DNA of 64,000 bases from Nesterenkonia halophila (GTDB taxonomy: Bacteria; Actinomycetota; Actinomycetes; Actinomycetales; Micrococcaceae), in the NCBI RefSeq assembly GCF_009467795.1, contig NZ_WIAX01000009.1, positions 62,001 to 126,000 on the forward strand, in the 5' to 3' direction. The notes beneath the pieces were generated by a model that made no database searches, was not told where the DNA came from, and was given only the letters and a program-made list of their open reading frames with translations. Below are positions 11,670-56,222 of this stretch, one piece after another. Position 1 is the first letter of the stretch; the number at the start of each line of letters is the position of its first letter. A program made the position numbers and the translations under genes.

Positions 11670-14609
11670 GTGGCCAAGGCCCGCGTACACGAGCTCGCCA
11701 AGGAGCTCGGCATCACGTCCAAAGATGCTCTTGCCAAACTGCAGGAGATGGGCGAATTCGTGAAGTCCCCGTCGTCGACGGTGGAGCCCCCGGTGGCGAA
11801 GAAGCTTCGCTCCGCGTTCCCGGACGCCCAGAAGAAGCAGGAGTCGGCCTCCTCCGGCTCCGCGAAGAAGAAGACCTCGTCCGACTCGTCGTCCGCCGCG
11901 GCGCAGACCGAAGCGGCCGAGACGACCGCGTCGGCCTCCGACTCCTCGGCCGGTGCGCAGCAGGACTCCGCCGCGTCGACGTCGTCGGCGCCGAAGCCTG
12001 GTCCCAAGCCGGCGCCGAAGCCCGCCCCGAAGCCGGGCGCGCAGAAGCAGGAGAAGCCCGCGGAGAAGGCCGCCGAGCAGCCCTCCGAGAAGCCTGCCGA
12101 GAAGCCCTCGCCGGCGGCCTCCGAGGAGCCCGCCGCCACGACCGAGGAGAAGCCGGAGTCCGGCTCCTCGGCCCCGAAGCCCGGTGCCAAGCCGGCGCCG
12201 AAGCCGGGGGCCAAGCCGGCCCCCAAGCCCGGCGCCCCGCGTCCGGGCAACAACCCGTACTCCTCCTCGCAGGGCATGGACTCGTCCGACCATCCGGCTC
12301 CGCGGCCGGGCGGATCCGCCGGTCCGCGCCCGCCGAAGCCGGGCCCGCGTCCGGGGAACAACCCGTTCTCCTCGCCGCAGGGCATGCGCGGTGAGCGCTC
12401 CGGCGGTCAGCGTTCCGGCGGCGGCGGTCGCGGAGGCGGCCGCGGCGGTCAGGGCGCCCAGGGTGCCCAGGGCGGTCAGGGCGGCGGCAAGCCGGGGCCC
12501 AAGCCCGGTGCCGGCGCCGGTGCCGCGCCGAACCCCGCCCAGGGCGGCGGCGCGCGTCCGAAGCCGTCGATGATGCCCGGCCAGTCCCCGGCGCCCAACG
12601 GTGCCGGCGGCGGAGGCCCGGCTCGTCCGGGCGGCGGTCCGCCGCGCGGTCGCGGCGGCCGCGGTCGCGGCGGCACGGCCGGCGCCTTCGGCCGCGGCGG
12701 TCCGTCGCGCTCGAAGAACCGCAAGTCGAAGCGCGCGAAGCGTCAGGAGATGGAGCAGCGTCGCACCCGCGAGATCGGGGGCGTGCGCGTGCCCAAGGGC
12801 GACGGCAGCACCATGCTGCGGCTGCGCCGCGGCTCCTCGCTGGCCGACTTCGCCGAGAAGATCAACGCTGAGCCGGCCGCGCTGGTCACCGTGCTGATGA
12901 AGCTCGGCGAGATGGCCACGGCCAACCAGTCCCTGGACGAGGAGACCTTCAAGCTGCTCGGCGAGGAACTGGGCTACGTGGTCGAGATCGTCTCGCCCGA
13001 GGACGAGGACCGCGAGCTGCTCGAGTCCTTCGACATCGACCTCTCGGCCGAGGCCGAGGACGAGGACGACGAGGACCTCGAGGCCCGCCCGGCGGTCGTG
13101 ACCGTCATGGGCCACGTCGACCACGGCAAGACGCGCCTGCTGGACGCGGTGCGCCACGCCAACGTCACCGAGGGCGAGGCCGGCGGCATCACCCAGCACA
13201 TCGGCGCCTACCAGGTGCAGGTCGACCACGAGGGCGAGCAGCGCGGCCTGACCTTCATCGACACCCCGGGCCACGAGGCGTTCACCGCCATGCGTGCCCG
13301 TGGCGCGAAGGTCACCGACATCGCCGTGCTGGTCGTCGCCGCCGACGACGGCGTCATGCCGCAGACGGTCGAGGCGATCAACCACGCCAAGGCCGCCGGG
13401 GTGCCGATCGTCGTCGCGGTCAACAAGATGGACAAGGAAGGCGCGTCGCCGGAGAAGGTCCGCGGCCAGCTCACCGAGTACGACATCGTGCCCGAGGCCT
13501 ACGGCGGCGACACCATGTTCGTCGACATCTCCGCGATCCAGCGGCTGAACATCGACGAGCTGCTCGAAGCCGTGCTGCTCACCGCCGACGCCTCGCTGGA
13601 GCTGACCGCCAACCCGGACCACGAGGCCCGCGGCGTGGCCATCGAGGCCAACCTGGACAAGGGTCGCGGCCCGGTCGCCACGGTGCTGGTGCAGACCGGC
13701 ACGCTGCGCATCGGCGACACCATCGTCGCCGGCAACGCCTACGGCCGCGTGCGGGCGATGTTCGACGAGAACGGCCAGGAGGTCACCGAGGCCGAGCCGT
13801 CGCGTCCGGTGCAGGTGCTGGGTCTGTCCGCGGTCCCGCGGGCCGGCGACAGCTTCCTGGTCACCCAGGAGGACCGCACCGCCCGGCAGATCGCTGAGAA
13901 GCGCGAGGCGGTCGAGCGCAACGCGATGCTGGCCAAGCGTCGCAAGCGCGTCAGCCTGGAGAACTTCGACCAGGTCGTGGCCGAGGGCAAGATCGACACG
14001 CTGAACCTGATCCTCAAGGGCGACGTCTCCGGCGCCGTCGAGGCTCTGGAGGATGCGCTGCTGAAGATCGACGTCGGCGAGGACGTGCAGCTGCGGGTGA
14101 TCCACCGCGGCGTCGGCGCCATCACGCAGAACGACGTGAACCTGGCGACGGTCGACGACGCGGTCATCATCGGCTTCAACGTCCGGCCGGCCGAGCGGGT
14201 CAACGACCTCGCCGAGCGCGAGGGCGTGGACATGCGCTTCTACTCGGTCATCTACGCGGCGATCGACGACATCGAGAACGCGATGAAGGGCATGCTCAAG
14301 CCGGAGTACGAGGAGGTCGAGCTCGGCTCGGCGGAGGTCCGCGAGGTCTTCCGCTCCTCGAAGTTCGGCAACATCGCCGGCTCCATCGTCCGTTCGGGCG
14401 TCATCCGTCGCAACGCCAAGGCCCGCCTGGTCCGCGACGGCGCCGTGGTGTCCGACAACCTGGCCATCGAGTCGCTCAAGCGGTACAAGGACGACGCCAC
14501 CGAGGTCCGTCAGGACTTTGAGTGCGGCATCGGCCTCGGCTCGTTCAACGACATCCAGGAGGGCGACCGCATCGAGACCTGGGAGATGCGCGAGATTCCG
14601 CGCGTCTGA
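11670..14609 (+). CDS. infB: Translation initiation factor IF-2
   Basis: GTPase that places initiator tRNA on the 30S subunit. 979 residues. The first 55 form the IF2-N helix domain ([20 protein letters not shown]). About 60-370 is a low-complexity, actinobacterial linker rich in Pro/Lys/Ala, then Gly/Arg repeats. A second IF2-N domain follows near 375-430. The GTPase domain holds G1 GHVDHGKT at 481-488, G3 DTPGHEAF, G4 NKMDKE and a G5-like DISA, and domains II-IV end in [12 protein letters not shown] 11670 lies behind an AAGGAG site. A 14-bp hairpin follows the stop. Confidence 0.98.
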
Positions 14610-45390: not shown

Positions 45391-46284
45391 ATGTCGACTG
45401 TGATCCGTATGCCCCGCCGCAGGACGGCGGCGAGCAGCGAACGCTCCACGCGCGAGACGCGCACCAAGCGCCTCCTCTACGTCGGCGGAGGCACGCTGGC
45501 CGCATTGGTCTTCGCGGTGCCGCTGGCCTTCGCCCTGGTGCGCTCGGTGCAGCCCAACGAAGTGGTCGTCCAGGCTCCGGAGTGGGGGACGTTCTTCGAC
45601 TTCACCTGGCAGAACTTCCAGCTTCTGGCTTCGCAGTCTGAGCTGGGCCGAGCTGTCGTCAACAGCCTGGTCGTCTCGCTCTCGACGGCGGTGCTGACTG
45701 CGGTGCTGGCCACTATGGCCGGATACGGCTTCGCGAAGTTCGCCTTCCGGATGCGCCCGTGGCTCTTCGGTGCGGTGCTGCTGACCATGATGATCCCGTT
45801 CCAGGCGATCCTGACTCCGCTGTACCTGCAGATGAACGTCATGGGGCTGACGGATTCGCTGATCGGGCTGATCCTCTTCTACTCCACAGTGAACCTGCCG
45901 TTCTGCGTGTTCGTCATGAGCAACTCCTTCGCCGCCGTCCCCGATGACCTGGAATCGGCGGCGCACGTCGACGGCGTCGGCACCTTCCGCATGCTGGTCT
46001 CAGTGCTGCGGCCCATGATCATCCCTGGAGTGGCCACCGCCGCCCTGTATGCGTTCCTGGCGTCCTGGACGGAGTTCCTGGCCGCGCTGACGTTCCTCAC
46101 CGACCAGGATCTCTACACCTTGCCGGTGAGCATGGTGAACCTGCAGCAGGGCGCCTACGGCGAGGTGAACTTCGGACTCATCGCCACCGGCGCCGTGGTG
46201 TCGATGATCCCGTGTGCGCTGCTCTACATCGCGCTGCAGAGGTTCTACGTGGCCGGGCTGGCGAGCGGGTCGATCAAGGGGTGA
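45391..46284 (+). CDS. Sugar ABC transporter permease (MalG type)
   Basis: 297 residues with a basic N-terminus (1-30), six membrane segments and EAA loop DLESAAHVDGVGTFRMLVSV near residue 190. It lies 9 nt after its partner and ends the LacI-controlled operon. The following DNA changes in base composition. Confidence 0.93.
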   Translation: MSTVIRMPRRRTAASSERSTRETRTKRLLYVGGGTLAALVFAVPLAFALVRSVQPNEVVVQAPEWGTFFDFTWQNFQLLASQSELGRAVVNSLVVSLSTAVLTAVLATMAGYGFAKFAFRMRPWLFGAVLLTMMIPFQAILTPLYLQMNVMGLTDSLIGLILFYSTVNLPFCVFVMSNSFAAVPDDLESAAHVDGVGTFRMLVSVLRPMIIPGVATAALYAFLASWTEFLAALTFLTDQDLYTLPVSMVNLQQGAYGEVNFGLIATGAVVSMIPCALLYIALQRFYVAGLASGSIKG

Positions 46285-46311
46285 CGAAGGGGCGTGACCT
46301 GGTCTCCCTGG

Positions 46312-46317
46312 TAGCGT
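46312..46317 (+). promoter_or_regulatory. Candidate -10 box for the MazG-like gene
   Basis: TAGCGT lies 7 nt before GTG 46325, which would make a leaderless transcript. No clear -35 is visible. Confidence 0.35.
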
Positions 46318-46324
46318 GAATCGA

Positions 46325-46642
46325 GTGGAAGACGTCACGCAGGAGCTCAGAGACTTCGTCGCCGAGCGCGACTGGAGCCAGTTCCATTCGCCGGAGAACC
46401 TGGCGAAGAGTATCTCTATCGAATCTGGGGAGCTTCTCGAGTGTTTCCAATGGTCGGGCACTGACTATGCTTCTGCCGACGTCCGTGACGAGCTCGCTGA
46501 TGTCTTGACCTATTGCCTGCTGCTGGCCGATCGTCTCGGCCTGGACTCGGAAGAGATCGTGCGGCAGAAGCTTCAGCGGACCAGAGAGAAGTACCCGGCC
46601 GACAAGTCACGTGGGCGGAGTACCAAATATGACCGCCTTTGA
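46325..46642 (+). CDS. MazG-like nucleotide pyrophosphohydrolase
   Basis: About 105 residues from GTG 46325 (GTG 46316 adds three). All-alpha NTP pyrophosphohydrolase fold: metal-binding helices are SIESGELLECFQW and RDELADVLTYCLLLADRLGL, with a C-terminal EKYPADKSRG. Such enzymes cleave (d)NTPs to monophosphates. It overlaps the downstream GIY-YIG/P-loop gene by 14 nt, so the two are co-produced. The region is less G+C-rich than the core genes, suggesting recent transfer. Confidence 0.88.
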   Translation: MEDVTQELRDFVAERDWSQFHSPENLAKSISIESGELLECFQWSGTDYASADVRDELADVLTYCLLLADRLGLDSEEIVRQKLQRTREKYPADKSRGRSTKYDRL

Positions 46643-48473
46643 GATTCGCAAGTTCTCCATGCGGGAACCGCTTCCGGAGAACGACGACGCCCGACTCAAG
46701 AACTGGCCGGTCGTCTACGCGCTGAACGGCGGGAAGAAGATCTACGTCGGCGAGACTCTCAGCGCGACCAGCCGGATCCGCCAGCATCAAGCATCTGACA
46801 GCAAGCGCGATATGCGGCTCGTACGGCTCCTGCTGCACGAGCACTTTAACAAGTCGGCAGCTCTCGACCTCGAGTCTCATCTGATCAGATGGCTCGCCGG
46901 CGACGGCAAGTATGAGGTCATCAACCGGAACCACGGCATCGTCGATGCTGATTACCACGACCGTGAGACGTATCGAGGCGAGTTCCCCGAGATCTTCGAG
47001 GCCCTCCGTGAGGCGGAGATCTTCGAACGAAGCATCCCGGGGATCGAGAACTCGGATCTCTTCAAGCTGTCGCCATTCAAGACGCTGACGCCCGAGCAGG
47101 CGCTCGCTGTCGAGGACCTGCTGCGGGCCTTGCGCTCGTCTTTGGACTCAGGCGCTGAACCAGGTTCGTTGGTCATCCAGGGAGACCCTGGCACCGGTAA
47201 GACGGTGGTCGCTGTCTACCTGATGAAGCTGTTGAGCGATATTGCTACTGTCACCGATGAGGAGATCGCGGAAGACCTCGAAGGGGACAGTCGGTTCTCC
47301 GAGTTCTTCACGTCGGAGTTCCGAGAGGCGTTGCAAGACTTCACCATCGGCCTGGTTGTGCCGCAGCAGGCACTCCGGAAGTCCATCCAAGCTGTCTTCA
47401 AGAGAACGCCTCAGCTGTCGAAGGACATGGTTATCGATCCCTTCTCGCTGGGCAAGAGCGACCAGCACTATTCGCTCCTCATCGTCGACGAGACTCATCG
47501 GCTCAATCAGCGGGCCAATCAGTCGTCAGGCAACCGGAATCGTGATTTCAGGGAGATCAACGAGAAGCTCTTCGGGAACGACTCGCCGCTCTATACTCAG
47601 CTCGACTGGGTGCGGCAGAAGAGTGACCATCAGGTCCTTCTCCTGGACGCGGAACAGTCTGTACGCCCCGCTGACCTCTCCCGTACAACGATCGATGTGA
47701 TCGTGAGCGAAGCGAAGACAGCTGGGAAGCACGTGACGTTGGCATCCCAACTTCGGCTCAACGCCGGCGACGAGTACATGCCGCATATCCGTCGACTGCT
47801 CCGAGGAGAAGAACGAGCTCCATCTCCTGTCGGCGACTACGAGTTCTGCATGTATTCGGACGTTTCCCAGATGTACGCCCGGATCCGACAGCTTGATGCT
47901 GAACACGGGCTGGCGCGTATGGCTGCCGGCTACGCCTGGAATTGGGTGACGAAGGACGGCGCCGCCTACGACTTCGAACTCGACGGGGTGAAGTTCTGTT
48001 GGAACAGCACCGACGTCGACTGGGTCAACTCCCCGAACGCCTTGGAAGAAGCCGGATCGATCCACACGCTCCAGGGGTACGACCTCAACTACGCCGGTGT
48101 GATCATCGGGCCAGACCTGCGCTGCGACCCCGCGACGGGGCAGGTCTACTTCGACCGTTCGAACTACTTCGATACCAAAGGAAAAGAAAACAACAAGAAG
48201 CTCGGCATCCGGTACAGCGACGAGGACATCCTCGATTACGTGCAGAACATCTACCGTGTCCTGCTGACGCGGGGGATCAAAGGCACACTCATCTATGTGT
48301 GCGACCCTCACCTGCGCGAGTACATGGCACGATACGTTCCCGAGGCTCAGGCTGTTCGCCCCATTGGCCCGTCGGACAGGATCCATGACGAGACGACCGA
48401 GGCAGGTTTTGATGTGCGGGCCCACGACGTTACCGATGACTCGACGCGGTCTGCGGGAGATGGCCACAGGTAG
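46629..48473 (+). CDS. GIY-YIG nuclease domain fused to DUF2075 P-loop NTPase/helicase-like protein
   Basis: 614 residues from ATG 46629 (GGGCGGAG upstream). A GIY-YIG-like domain occupies about 25-110 (VVYALNGGKKIYVGETLSATSRIRQH). The DUF2075 part follows: Walker A GDPGTGKT at 185-192, Walker B LLIVDETHR with D287-E288, and later helicase-like blocks SQLRLNAGDEYM and SIHTLQGYDLNYAGVIIGPD, then VLLTRGIKGTLIYVCD. This suggests a nucleic-acid-acting ATPase with a nuclease head. Paired with a MazG-like enzyme in transferred-looking DNA, it may be a phage-defence system. I know of no characterised system with this exact pair. Confidence 0.85.
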   Translation: MTAFEIRKFSMREPLPENDDARLKNWPVVYALNGGKKIYVGETLSATSRIRQHQASDSKRDMRLVRLLLHEHFNKSAALDLESHLIRWLAGDGKYEVINRNHGIVDADYHDRETYRGEFPEIFEALREAEIFERSIPGIENSDLFKLSPFKTLTPEQALAVEDLLRALRSSLDSGAEPGSLVIQGDPGTGKTVVAVYLMKLLSDIATVTDEEIAEDLEGDSRFSEFFTSEFREALQDFTIGLVVPQQALRKSIQAVFKRTPQLSKDMVIDPFSLGKSDQHYSLLIVDETHRLNQRANQSSGNRNRDFREINEKLFGNDSPLYTQLDWVRQKSDHQVLLLDAEQSVRPADLSRTTIDVIVSEAKTAGKHVTLASQLRLNAGDEYMPHIRRLLRGEERAPSPVGDYEFCMYSDVSQMYARIRQLDAEHGLARMAAGYAWNWVTKDGAAYDFELDGVKFCWNSTDVDWVNSPNALEEAGSIHTLQGYDLNYAGVIIGPDLRCDPATGQVYFDRSNYFDTKGKENNKKLGIRYSDEDILDYVQNIYRVLLTRGIKGTLIYVCDPHLREYMARYVPEAQAVRPIGPSDRIHDETTEAGFDVRAHDVTDDSTRSAGDGHR

Positions 48474-55376: not shown

Positions 55377-56222
55377 TCACCGTTTCGTCCACTCACCGCA
55401 TCCGTTCGTCTCGAACGCCACGTCAGTCTCGGCGATCGTCACCAGAGCCTGGCCCTCGGAGACGTTGTTGTTCGTGATGATGTCGTCGAGGTCTCCGCCC
55501 GTGCCGGAGAGCCGCGCCCAGTAGCAGTTGATGCCGGTGACCTCGGTGCTGTACGTGCCAGCATCGATGTCCTCGCCGACGATGTACACGCCCGTCCCCG
55601 GGATCGTGTTCTCCTCGACCTCGGTCTCCTGCGTCGAGATCTCCTCCTCGCGGGTGTCCAGGTCCTCCTCCCGGGTATCGAGGTCGGAGCTGCGGGAGTC
55701 GAGGTCAGAGGTACGGGTGCCGAGCTCCTCTTCGCGAGTGTCCAGCTCCGAGTCACGCTCGTCGGCAGCCTGCCGCTGCTCTTCGAGATCAGCCGGCGGG
55801 ACCTCGACCTCTTCAGTCTCGGTCTCGGTGATCGTCTCGGTCTCGGTGACGATCTCAGGCTCGGGATCCGCGGAGGCCGCGCCGCCCAGCGTCGTGCCCA
55901 CGATGAAGGCCACGACCACGCCGACGACCCACGGCCATCGACGGCGCTTCTTCGGCTCCGGCGCCGCGCCGGGCGGCGGCTGCGGCGGCATGGGCGGCGG
56001 CGGTCCCATCGGAGCGGGCGGGCCGGGAGGCCCGGGAGGCGGTCCGGCGGGTCCGCCCGGCCCAGGAGGCGGAGGCATCTGCGCGGGCGGGCCGGGCGGC
56101 TGTCCAGGGGCTGGCGGTCCGTCGGCCGGTGGAGGCCCGGAAGGCTGCCCAGGTCCCGCGCCGTCGTCAGGCGGGGGAGACTGCGGCGGGATCGGGCGGG
56201 TCGGCTCGTCGTCGTGGGACAT
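55377..56222 (-). CDS. Pro-rich single-pass membrane protein with heptad coiled coil
   Basis: 281 residues. Cytoplasmic Pro/Gly-rich tail (1-90), KKRRR then one membrane helix (about 98-118), a Thr/Glu region, and a coiled coil built from near-perfect 7-residue repeats of the form LDTREED at about 155-200. The C-terminal 80 residues form a small domain, GVYIVGEDIDAGTYST, CYWARLSG, ETNGCGEW, with two Cys that may pair outside the cell. Such C-terminal domains are common in actinobacterial surface proteins of unknown role. The gene stands alone. Confidence 0.75.
   Translation of the reverse strand: MSHDDEPTRPIPPQSPPPDDGAGPGQPSGPPPADGPPAPGQPPGPPAQMPPPPGPGGPAGPPPGPPGPPAPMGPPPPMPPQPPPGAAPEPKKRRRWPWVVGVVVAFIVGTTLGGAASADPEPEIVTETETITETETEEVEVPPADLEEQRQAADERDSELDTREEELGTRTSDLDSRSSDLDTREEDLDTREEEISTQETEVEENTIPGTGVYIVGEDIDAGTYSTEVTGINCYWARLSGTGGDLDDIITNNNVSEGQALVTIAETDVAFETNGCGEWTKR

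Follow-up and report, generated by a model that had tools for sequence, protein, structure and literature searches.

A MazG-like gene that overlaps a GIY-YIG–helicase gene in Nesterenkonia halophila: a conserved pair with a likely role in anti-phage defence

What might hold a small gene of the nucleotide-hydrolase kind to a gene for a nuclease fused to a helicase? The question is raised by a 64,000-nucleotide (nt) stretch of Nesterenkonia halophila DNA (contig NZ_WIAX01000009.1, positions 62,001 to 126,000, forward strand; termed the window), in which a sequence-only reading had marked a MazG-like gene and a GIY-YIG–DUF2075 gene at 46325–48473 as a candidate antiviral module. The overlapping gene pair was confirmed as real; the interpretation placed on it is, as a whole, partly supported. 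Open reading frames (ORFs) and other features of the pair are as follows; related loci and genomes are cited by L and G numbers.

46316–46642, + strand: MazG-like gene, predicted all-alpha (deoxy)nucleoside triphosphate pyrophosphohydrolase of the DCTPP1/RS21-C6 type, 108 amino acids, GTG start
46629–48473, + strand: gene for a predicted GIY-YIG head fused to a superfamily 1 (SF1) helicase of the SLFN-g3 (DUF2075) family, 614 amino acids, ATG start inside the MazG-like gene
46629–46642, + strand: gene overlap of 14 nt, exact in ORF coordinates
46629–47069, + strand: GIY-YIG head, approximately residues 1–147, with Y30, Y39-V-G-E42, R49, H53 and E82 (PF01541 match and residue conservation)
47169–48305, + strand: SF1 helicase core, PF09848 match over residues 181–559, with Walker A GDPGTGKT (G185–T192), Walker B D287–E288 and C-terminal motifs at about Q482 and R548
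46306–48340 (right edge 48307–48340), no strand: DNA block with the pair, shared with four relatives (blastn against L031–L034)

Both ORFs and the 14-nt overlap were found as first described, but the start of the MazG-like gene has to be moved: the GTG at 46316 is likelier than position 46325 because L032, L033 and L034 keep a GTG at the equivalent place, in each case after CTGATAGC. The octamer CTGRTAGC in front of this GTG is also kept (window 46308–46315; L032, 7879–7886; L033, 8097–8104; L034, 8420–8427) and forms the left edge of the shared block, the DNA just upstream of it being unconserved. Of the 21 related loci in which a MazG gene lies upstream on the same strand, 20 have an ATG for the helicase gene at the exact 14-nt-overlap distance; the picking of starts favoured the ATG nearest to this distance, so the count attests to the presence of an ATG there only. 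The overlap makes translational coupling likely. No promoter-like or terminator-like sites were detected around the pair by a simple scan.

The guanine plus cytosine (G+C) content was recomputed as 58.3% over 47701–47760 and 71.7% over 13321–13380 (infB), in agreement with the depression first counted by hand. Among all 2158-nt stretches of the window (mean 69.5%, standard deviation 3.0) the minimum of 59.1% belongs to the one starting at 46282, which spans nearly the whole pair, and the low value is for this reason more than chance. Third-position G+C is 0.71 and 0.77 for the two genes against 0.893 ± 0.053 for the 45 other predicted ORFs longer than 600 nt; it is low but not unique, since the minimum among those 45 is 0.722.

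The 108-residue MazG-like protein was matched in Pfam by families of the MazG type only (PF12643 MazG-like, 1.9e-19; PF03819 MazG, 6.4e-5). Searched against the PDB, its profile retrieved RS21-C6/dCTPase (∼3.6e-32) and the archaeal pyrophosphatase 4qgp (2.6e-28), with dUTPases (from 3.7e-7) and MazZ (2e-4) far weaker; the single sequence likewise retrieved dCTPase/RS21-C6 (5.6e-18). An AlphaFold2 model (mean predicted local distance difference test score, pLDDT, 90.8) had as its top fold match mouse dCTPase bound to 5-Me-dCMP (6sqw; template-modelling score 0.79), and the dm5CTP complex 2oig was also among the matches. The metal motif E36-x2-E39 ... E59-x2-D62 is intact and is accompanied by the conserved W20, W46, Y66 and K85; E36, E39, E59, D62, W20 and K85 are present in 87 of 87 paired MazG homologues and W46 and Y66 in 86. 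In mouse dCTPase W47, W73, Y102, K121, E63, E66, E95 and D98 align with W20, W46, Y66, K85, E36, E39, E59 and D62, and these mouse residues are presumably those with roles in substrate binding. The sequence family and fold are those of mouse and human dCTPase (DCTPP1, RS21-C6), although the protein is bacterial, shorter and, in the genomes searched, mostly encoded beside a nuclease–helicase gene. With similarity clearly above that to other MazG branches, and with the metal site and both tryptophans, it is assigned from its sequence to the dCTPase (DCTPP1) type. DCTPP1 hydrolyses deoxycytidine triphosphate (dCTP) and C5-modified dCTP (PMC7162842); the MazG-like enzyme probably destroys dCTP and perhaps modified dCTP.

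In the large protein, the GIY-YIG head and P-loop ATPase with helicase motifs recognized from the sequence were recovered by Pfam as PF01541 (1.2e-5; 26 bits, cut-off 22.6) and PF09848 SLFN-g3_helicase (3.5e-60; profile positions 4–354 of 354), the latter being, we take it, the former DUF2075. The full-length PF09848 match with Walker A and B motifs places the motor in the SLFN-g3 family. Conservation was counted over 101 GIY-type homologues after exclusion of 12 rows (eight of PD type and four broken or partial): Y39, G41, E42, R49, H53 and E82 in the head and K191, D287, E288, Q482 and R548 in the helicase are present in all 101, Y30 in 100 with one gap and N99 in only 56. The GIY and YIG tyrosines, Arg49 and Glu82 presumably have the catalytic-site roles of GIY-YIG nucleases, and the above-cut-off PF01541 match with invariant Y39, R49 and E82 supports membership of that superfamily. 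Comparisons of the head with known structures were weak: the GIY profile gave SLX1 at 0.018, I-TevI (intron-associated endonuclease 1) at 0.067, T4 endonuclease II at 0.086 and UvrC at 0.47, and the window head alone matched nothing in the PDB up to E 10. The model of the large protein (pLDDT 85.5) matched FBH1 (Z 17.6), UvrD (17.2), SLFN11 (16.2) and Dda (15.5) over the helicase part; Foldseek alone placed Dna2 and UPF1 first. By these features the protein is classed as an SF1 helicase of the SLFN-g3 family with a GIY-YIG nuclease head. The head of a sister group of eight more distant loci is not GIY-YIG; an ELKQW motif in the alignment makes it look PD-(D/E)XK-like, an assignment that stays inferential because Pfam names no nuclease in L059 of this group.

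That MazG-like and nuclease–helicase genes are coupled is near certain. Any match to the helicase gene was obtained in 36 of 147 related genomes (that of N. halophila included) and a near full-length one in 24, and a MazG copy, located by tblastn with the window protein, adjoined 23 of these 24; the exception is L020/L049 (G012). A DCTPP1-like match was found in 33 of the 147 genomes, and in 28 of them the gene adjoins such a helicase gene. Among nine neighbours of the five solitary DCTPP1-like genes (G066, G094, G101, G122 and G144) no second type of nuclease–helicase was found; these neighbours were FRG, APP1, EF-G or methyltransferase genes or had no Pfam match. When genomes were scanned with an alignment headed by a homologue from a Lactiplantibacillus plasmid, at least 593 relatives were obtained, the best 80 of which (mostly Bacillota, with some other Actinomycetota) formed a distant set. 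A MazG profile match lay within 1 kb of the helicase gene in 59 of the 80 (28 downstream and 21 upstream on the same strand, eight divergent and two convergent), while the runner-up neighbour cluster within 6 kb reached six of the 80. In the other 21 no MazG match was found farther off in the fetched DNA, which for three of them (L105, L139 and L150) extends less than 1 kb on one side. The MazG gene is divergent in four of the eight sister-group loci (L057, L059, L061 and L065) and in L056, a distant locus of the GIY type. A quickly built tree with 113 members, one of them flagged for its long row, requires at least 14 rearrangements among the 87 paired members, against 29–42 in 200 shuffles of the labels; arrangement thus follows descent and was repeatedly remade with adjacency kept. 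Presence or absence of MazG changed at least 18 times on this tree. The co-occurrence that had been proposed as a check is thereby borne out. In L023/L052 (G114; L052, 8184–10328) the GIY-YIG nuclease–helicase gene is followed downstream by a MazG of another subtype, which elsewhere is the companion of the PD-(D/E)XK-like type; by sequence this is a partner exchange.

The surroundings of the pair change. The block shared with L031, L032, L033 and L034 runs from 46306/46308 to 48307–48340 at 91, 91, 76 and 67% identity. The pair block is all that L032 (19.5 kb) has in common with the window, and L031 and L032 have only the pair in common. L031, L033 and L034 match the window in additional blocks and so belong to one larger region, in which the genes close to the pair differ; window block 55389–55527, for example, lies close behind the pair in L033. 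Because the blocks end at the edges of the pair and the flanks differ, the pair has been kept together while its neighbours changed, and it looks like a small movable module whose two genes remain neighbours in many bacteria. In G016 (L054) and G022 (L055) the GIY-helicase gene survives only as fragments and no MazG was found; the L055 remnant adjoins homologues of the L036 ligD and pyridoxamine-oxidase-like genes, as do the intact pairs in L035–L038. Of the ten ORFs around the pair in the window, two are without a Pfam name. The rest are, by Pfam, a GH127 glycosidase, a solute-binding protein and two permeases on the upstream side, and on the downstream side an IclR regulator, an OPT transporter, a hydrolase and DUF1177.

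The restriction neighbour that recurs on actinobacterial chromosomes is a SauUSI-like gene of the type IV kind. A large SauUSI-related protein is encoded near the pair in L042, L045 and L050, and PADLOC type IV restriction models matched three neighbours, taken to be these. In L050 and L069 Pfam resolved the SauUSI-like neighbour as PLD, helicase and DUF3427 with a NUDIX hydrolase gene adjoining; SauUSI has this PLD–helicase–DUF3427 architecture and cuts DNA containing 5-methylcytosine (m5C) or 5-hydroxymethylcytosine (hm5C), according to passages of PMC3874153. SauUSI-like matches at 1e-50 (some partial, ∼36% identical) occurred in 47 of the 147 genomes, 13 of which also hold the SLFN gene, and in four of these 13 (G037, G085, G098 and G118) the SauUSI-like gene lies within 2 kb of the helicase gene; random placement would give 0.04 linkages within 5 kb (P ∼1e-7). 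The helicase gene of G118 holds a stop and no MazG was found there. The linkage recurs in three of the 80 distant loci (L095, L134 and L157), in plasmid stretch L069 and in L076, and a NUDIX gene is present in six of nine SauUSI-linked loci. The arrangement of NUDIX near a SauUSI-like PLD–helicase–DUF3427 gene is thus met beside the MazG/GIY pair in two phyla (L069, 297–3594; L050, 10659–14254; L095, L134 and L157), and by its predicted products is a second pairing of a hydrolase with a nuclease–helicase.

Plasmid homologues were compared with controls. Twelve plasmid or phage stretches were taken, 11 hand-chosen from 40 matching plasmid records and one from four phage records, and for ten of the plasmids a second stretch from another part of the same molecule served as control; L067, which nearly duplicates L066, and L076 were excluded. 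Restriction, DNA-methylase, CRISPR, GmrSD or SauUSI-like genes were counted as qualifying; DUF3578, DUF3883 and HNH in the test stretches and Fic, TnpB, a PD-(D/E)XK-like protein and a class I methyltransferase in the controls were regarded as ambiguous and counted on neither side. Six of ten stretches near the helicase gene qualified (L069, L070, L071, L072, L073 and L075) against none of ten controls (p = 0.005), or five against none (p = 0.016) without L069, which was counted by a Pfam scan that the controls lacked. Because a MazG gene is present in only three of the ten (L069, L072 and L075), this context says more about where the helicase family is found than about the pair. In a Limosilactobacillus fermentum plasmid (L071, 5841–8898) the DUF2075 gene immediately precedes cas6 and cas10 of type III-A CRISPR, and in Lentilactobacillus fungorum (L078, 4955–6859) the ORF upstream of the pair matches DISARM DrmB in PADLOC at 9.3e-82. 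An unverified 10.6-kb fecal 'Bacteriophage sp.' scaffold (L076; MT836409.1) has a SauUSI-like gene, a MazG gene and a GIY-helicase gene one after another and could be of bacterial origin although deposited among phages. Phage as the main home of the pair is not favoured, at least four relatives having been confirmed on viral contigs and four phage records matched, one of them an unverified fecal scaffold.

A role of the pair in anti-phage defence is likely, as judged from sequence. The combination of a dCTP-type hydrolase, a GIY-YIG nuclease on a motor and a recurrent type IV restriction neighbour with its own hydrolase leads us to favour, tentatively, base-specific restriction in which cleaning of the nucleotide pool serves as self-protection. 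The mechanism, enzyme activities, target base and self-protection through the pool that we infer would be these. The pair would be a mobile two-gene defence module. Its large protein would act as an ATP-driven SF1 translocase that finds and cuts foreign DNA with an exchangeable endonuclease head (of the GIY-YIG kind in this pair and PD-(D/E)XK-like in sister systems), attacking DNA with an unusual base that is probably C5-modified. The small protein, as a DCTPP1-type pyrophosphohydrolase, would destroy dCTP and/or C5-modified dCTP and so keep the targeted base out of host DNA and away from phage polymerase. The working mode would resemble modification-dependent (type IV) restriction, with a pool cleaner in place of a protective methylase. 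It is conceivable, if doubtful, that such methylase-free discrimination of self from non-self, in which a deoxynucleoside triphosphate pyrophosphohydrolase keeps the targeted base from the precursors, was built at least twice, once from DCTPP1-type MazG with a GIY-YIG or PD-(D/E)XK-like SF1 helicase and once from NUDIX with a PLD helicase–DUF3427 protein.

Several results weigh against base-specific restriction with pool cleaning. In the large protein Pfam revealed no domain known to read modified bases. PADLOC gave no match at 1e-5 among the ten window ORFs around the pair, and few viral contigs carry relatives. No MazG was found within 1 kb of 26 of the 113 homologues (some at contig ends), so that MazG is not always needed in cis. 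Carriers have m5C methyltransferases (PF00145) no less often than the other genomes (12 of 23 against 49 of 124, p = 0.36), which makes plain 5-methylcytosine (5mC) unlikely as the target; its restriction, which predicted a depletion of m5C methyltransferases (the only ones checked), was dropped from the favoured reading. Neither 5-hydroxymethylcytosine nor any other base is excluded as target by this count. On actinobacterial chromosomes no general excess of PADLOC families was found near the pair (59 against 67 in controls at 1e-15). This comparison used 131 neighbours (143 gathered, 135 drawn, two dropped for length and two as antisense shadows of MazG) and 131 of 203 control genes from 20 hand-picked stretches elsewhere in the same genomes. 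Recurrence differed, with PbeA models matching up to four neighbours and mREase_IV models three, while no control family occurred more than once. The enrichment in defence islands expected from the sequence alone is supported around plasmid homologues of the helicase gene and was not shown in general by the chromosomal comparison. The nearest neighbours of the 80 distant loci, taken without a control set (145 of 150; the five set aside were two from L117, a repeat of L115, and a long ORF from each of L137, L138 and L142), included GmrSD_N (three), NUDIX (two), ResIII (two), RVT_1 (two), MgsA_C (four) and GH20 (four) among the 25 Pfam families listed of 178.

The pair corresponds to no named PADLOC system, for which a strong match to a system model is required: MazG gave no match, and the best ones of the helicase, PDC-S41 (7.9e-9) and PDC-S14 (4.8e-6), are partial. 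The SauUSI type likewise consists of a nuclease head on a helicase motor, in several loci with an adjoining nucleotide pyrophosphohydrolase, but its PLD nuclease and DUF3427 are both absent from the window protein, which is SF1 with a GIY-YIG head and no known reader; the SauUSI helicase is, we assume, of SF2 type. From the human Schlafens SLFN11 and SLFN14, with which it has the helicase fold (Z 13.7–16.2) and the Pfam name SLFN-g3_helicase in common, the large protein differs in having a GIY-YIG head instead of the Schlafen endoribonuclease core, which was not found among the 15 Pfam families listed at E 0.1. CMoRE, published in 2026, is described in passages of PMC12923530 as a GIY-YIG enzyme that restricts DNA with 5-hydroxymethylcytosine (5hmC) or its glucosylated form (5ghmC), the target class proposed for the pair. 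It is a single component according to the same passages (PMC12923530), whereas a MazG partner stands beside 87 of the 113 homologues here. The third tyrosine, GIYxY, that those passages report for all CMoRE (PMC12923530) is replaced in the window protein (Y30-A31-L32; alignment consensus VYxL), and the word helicase is absent from the text of the paper. The pair thus departs from CMoRE in both the third tyrosine and the number of components. In phage T4, dCTPase (gene 56) removes dCTP and depletes its pool while cytosine-specific endonucleases such as endonuclease II (DenA) attack cytosine DNA, so that, as proposed here, the pool is cleaned and self DNA escapes a base-discriminating nuclease (passages of PMC6071114). 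The T4 pairing is phage-borne, lacks a helicase fusion and has the opposite polarity, unmodified cytosine being attacked, and is an analogy, not a case of membership. DenA is presumably a GIY-YIG nuclease, and the GIY profile matched 2wsh weakly (0.0065 in one search, 0.086 in another).

The sequence-only reading had let the hydrolase either deplete or sanitise nucleotides. Depletion, in which MazG would drain dCTP on infection and starve the phage while the nuclease–helicase degraded phage DNA or sensed infection, is rather unlikely and is less favoured than pool cleaning. DCTPP1-type enzymes do hydrolyse dCTP itself (PMC7162842), T4 dCTPase depletes the dCTP pool (passages of PMC6071114) and the plasmid homologues stand in a defence-like context, but a 108-residue hydrolase with MazG-type matches only has no visible sensor or switch, a constitutive drain on dCTP should harm the host, and the recurring SauUSI-like/NUDIX neighbours suit sanitation better. 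A role in genome quality, with the hydrolase clearing dCTP that is damaged or modified and the GIY-YIG helicase, through its UvrC-like and UvrD-like parts, cutting that same lesion out of host DNA, is improbable. Pool cleaning and removal from DNA would be a logical pairing, and UvrD is among the fold matches with UvrC weakly matched by the GIY profile; yet the gene is patchy (36 of 147 genomes with any match), low in G+C, set among changing immediate neighbours and reduced to fragments in G016 and G022, and its plasmid homologues lie among restriction genes. A toxin–antitoxin-like or selfish unit, in which MazG would restrain a harmful nuclease–helicase by binding and not through nucleotides, is very improbable: a small first gene with a conserved overlap resembles an antitoxin–toxin operon, and low G+C and changing neighbours would fit, but a protein acting purely as an antitoxin would not require the hydrolase metal site, which is kept in 87 of 87. 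Moreover, 30 of the 59 distant paired loci have MazG on the downstream side, 26 of 113 loci lack it nearby, and one kind of partner is served by two divergent MazG subtypes.

No description of this pair was found in the open-access papers searched, a scope beyond which lie most subscription papers and all bioRxiv preprints. MazG is listed as a predicted, unvalidated defence domain by DefensePredictor (PMC13092281), and the helicase passages found in a 2006 survey of GIY-YIG proteins concern only Tlr8 (PMC1564403). Should base-specific restriction with pool cleaning prove true, sanitation of the nucleotide pool would be a self-protection device in bacterial immunity, the counterpart of the protective methylase, and the presence of (deoxy)nucleoside triphosphate pyrophosphohydrolases in defence loci would be explained. 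The widespread GIY-YIG–DUF2075 proteins, with at least 593 relatives, and their MazG partner would gain a testable joint function.

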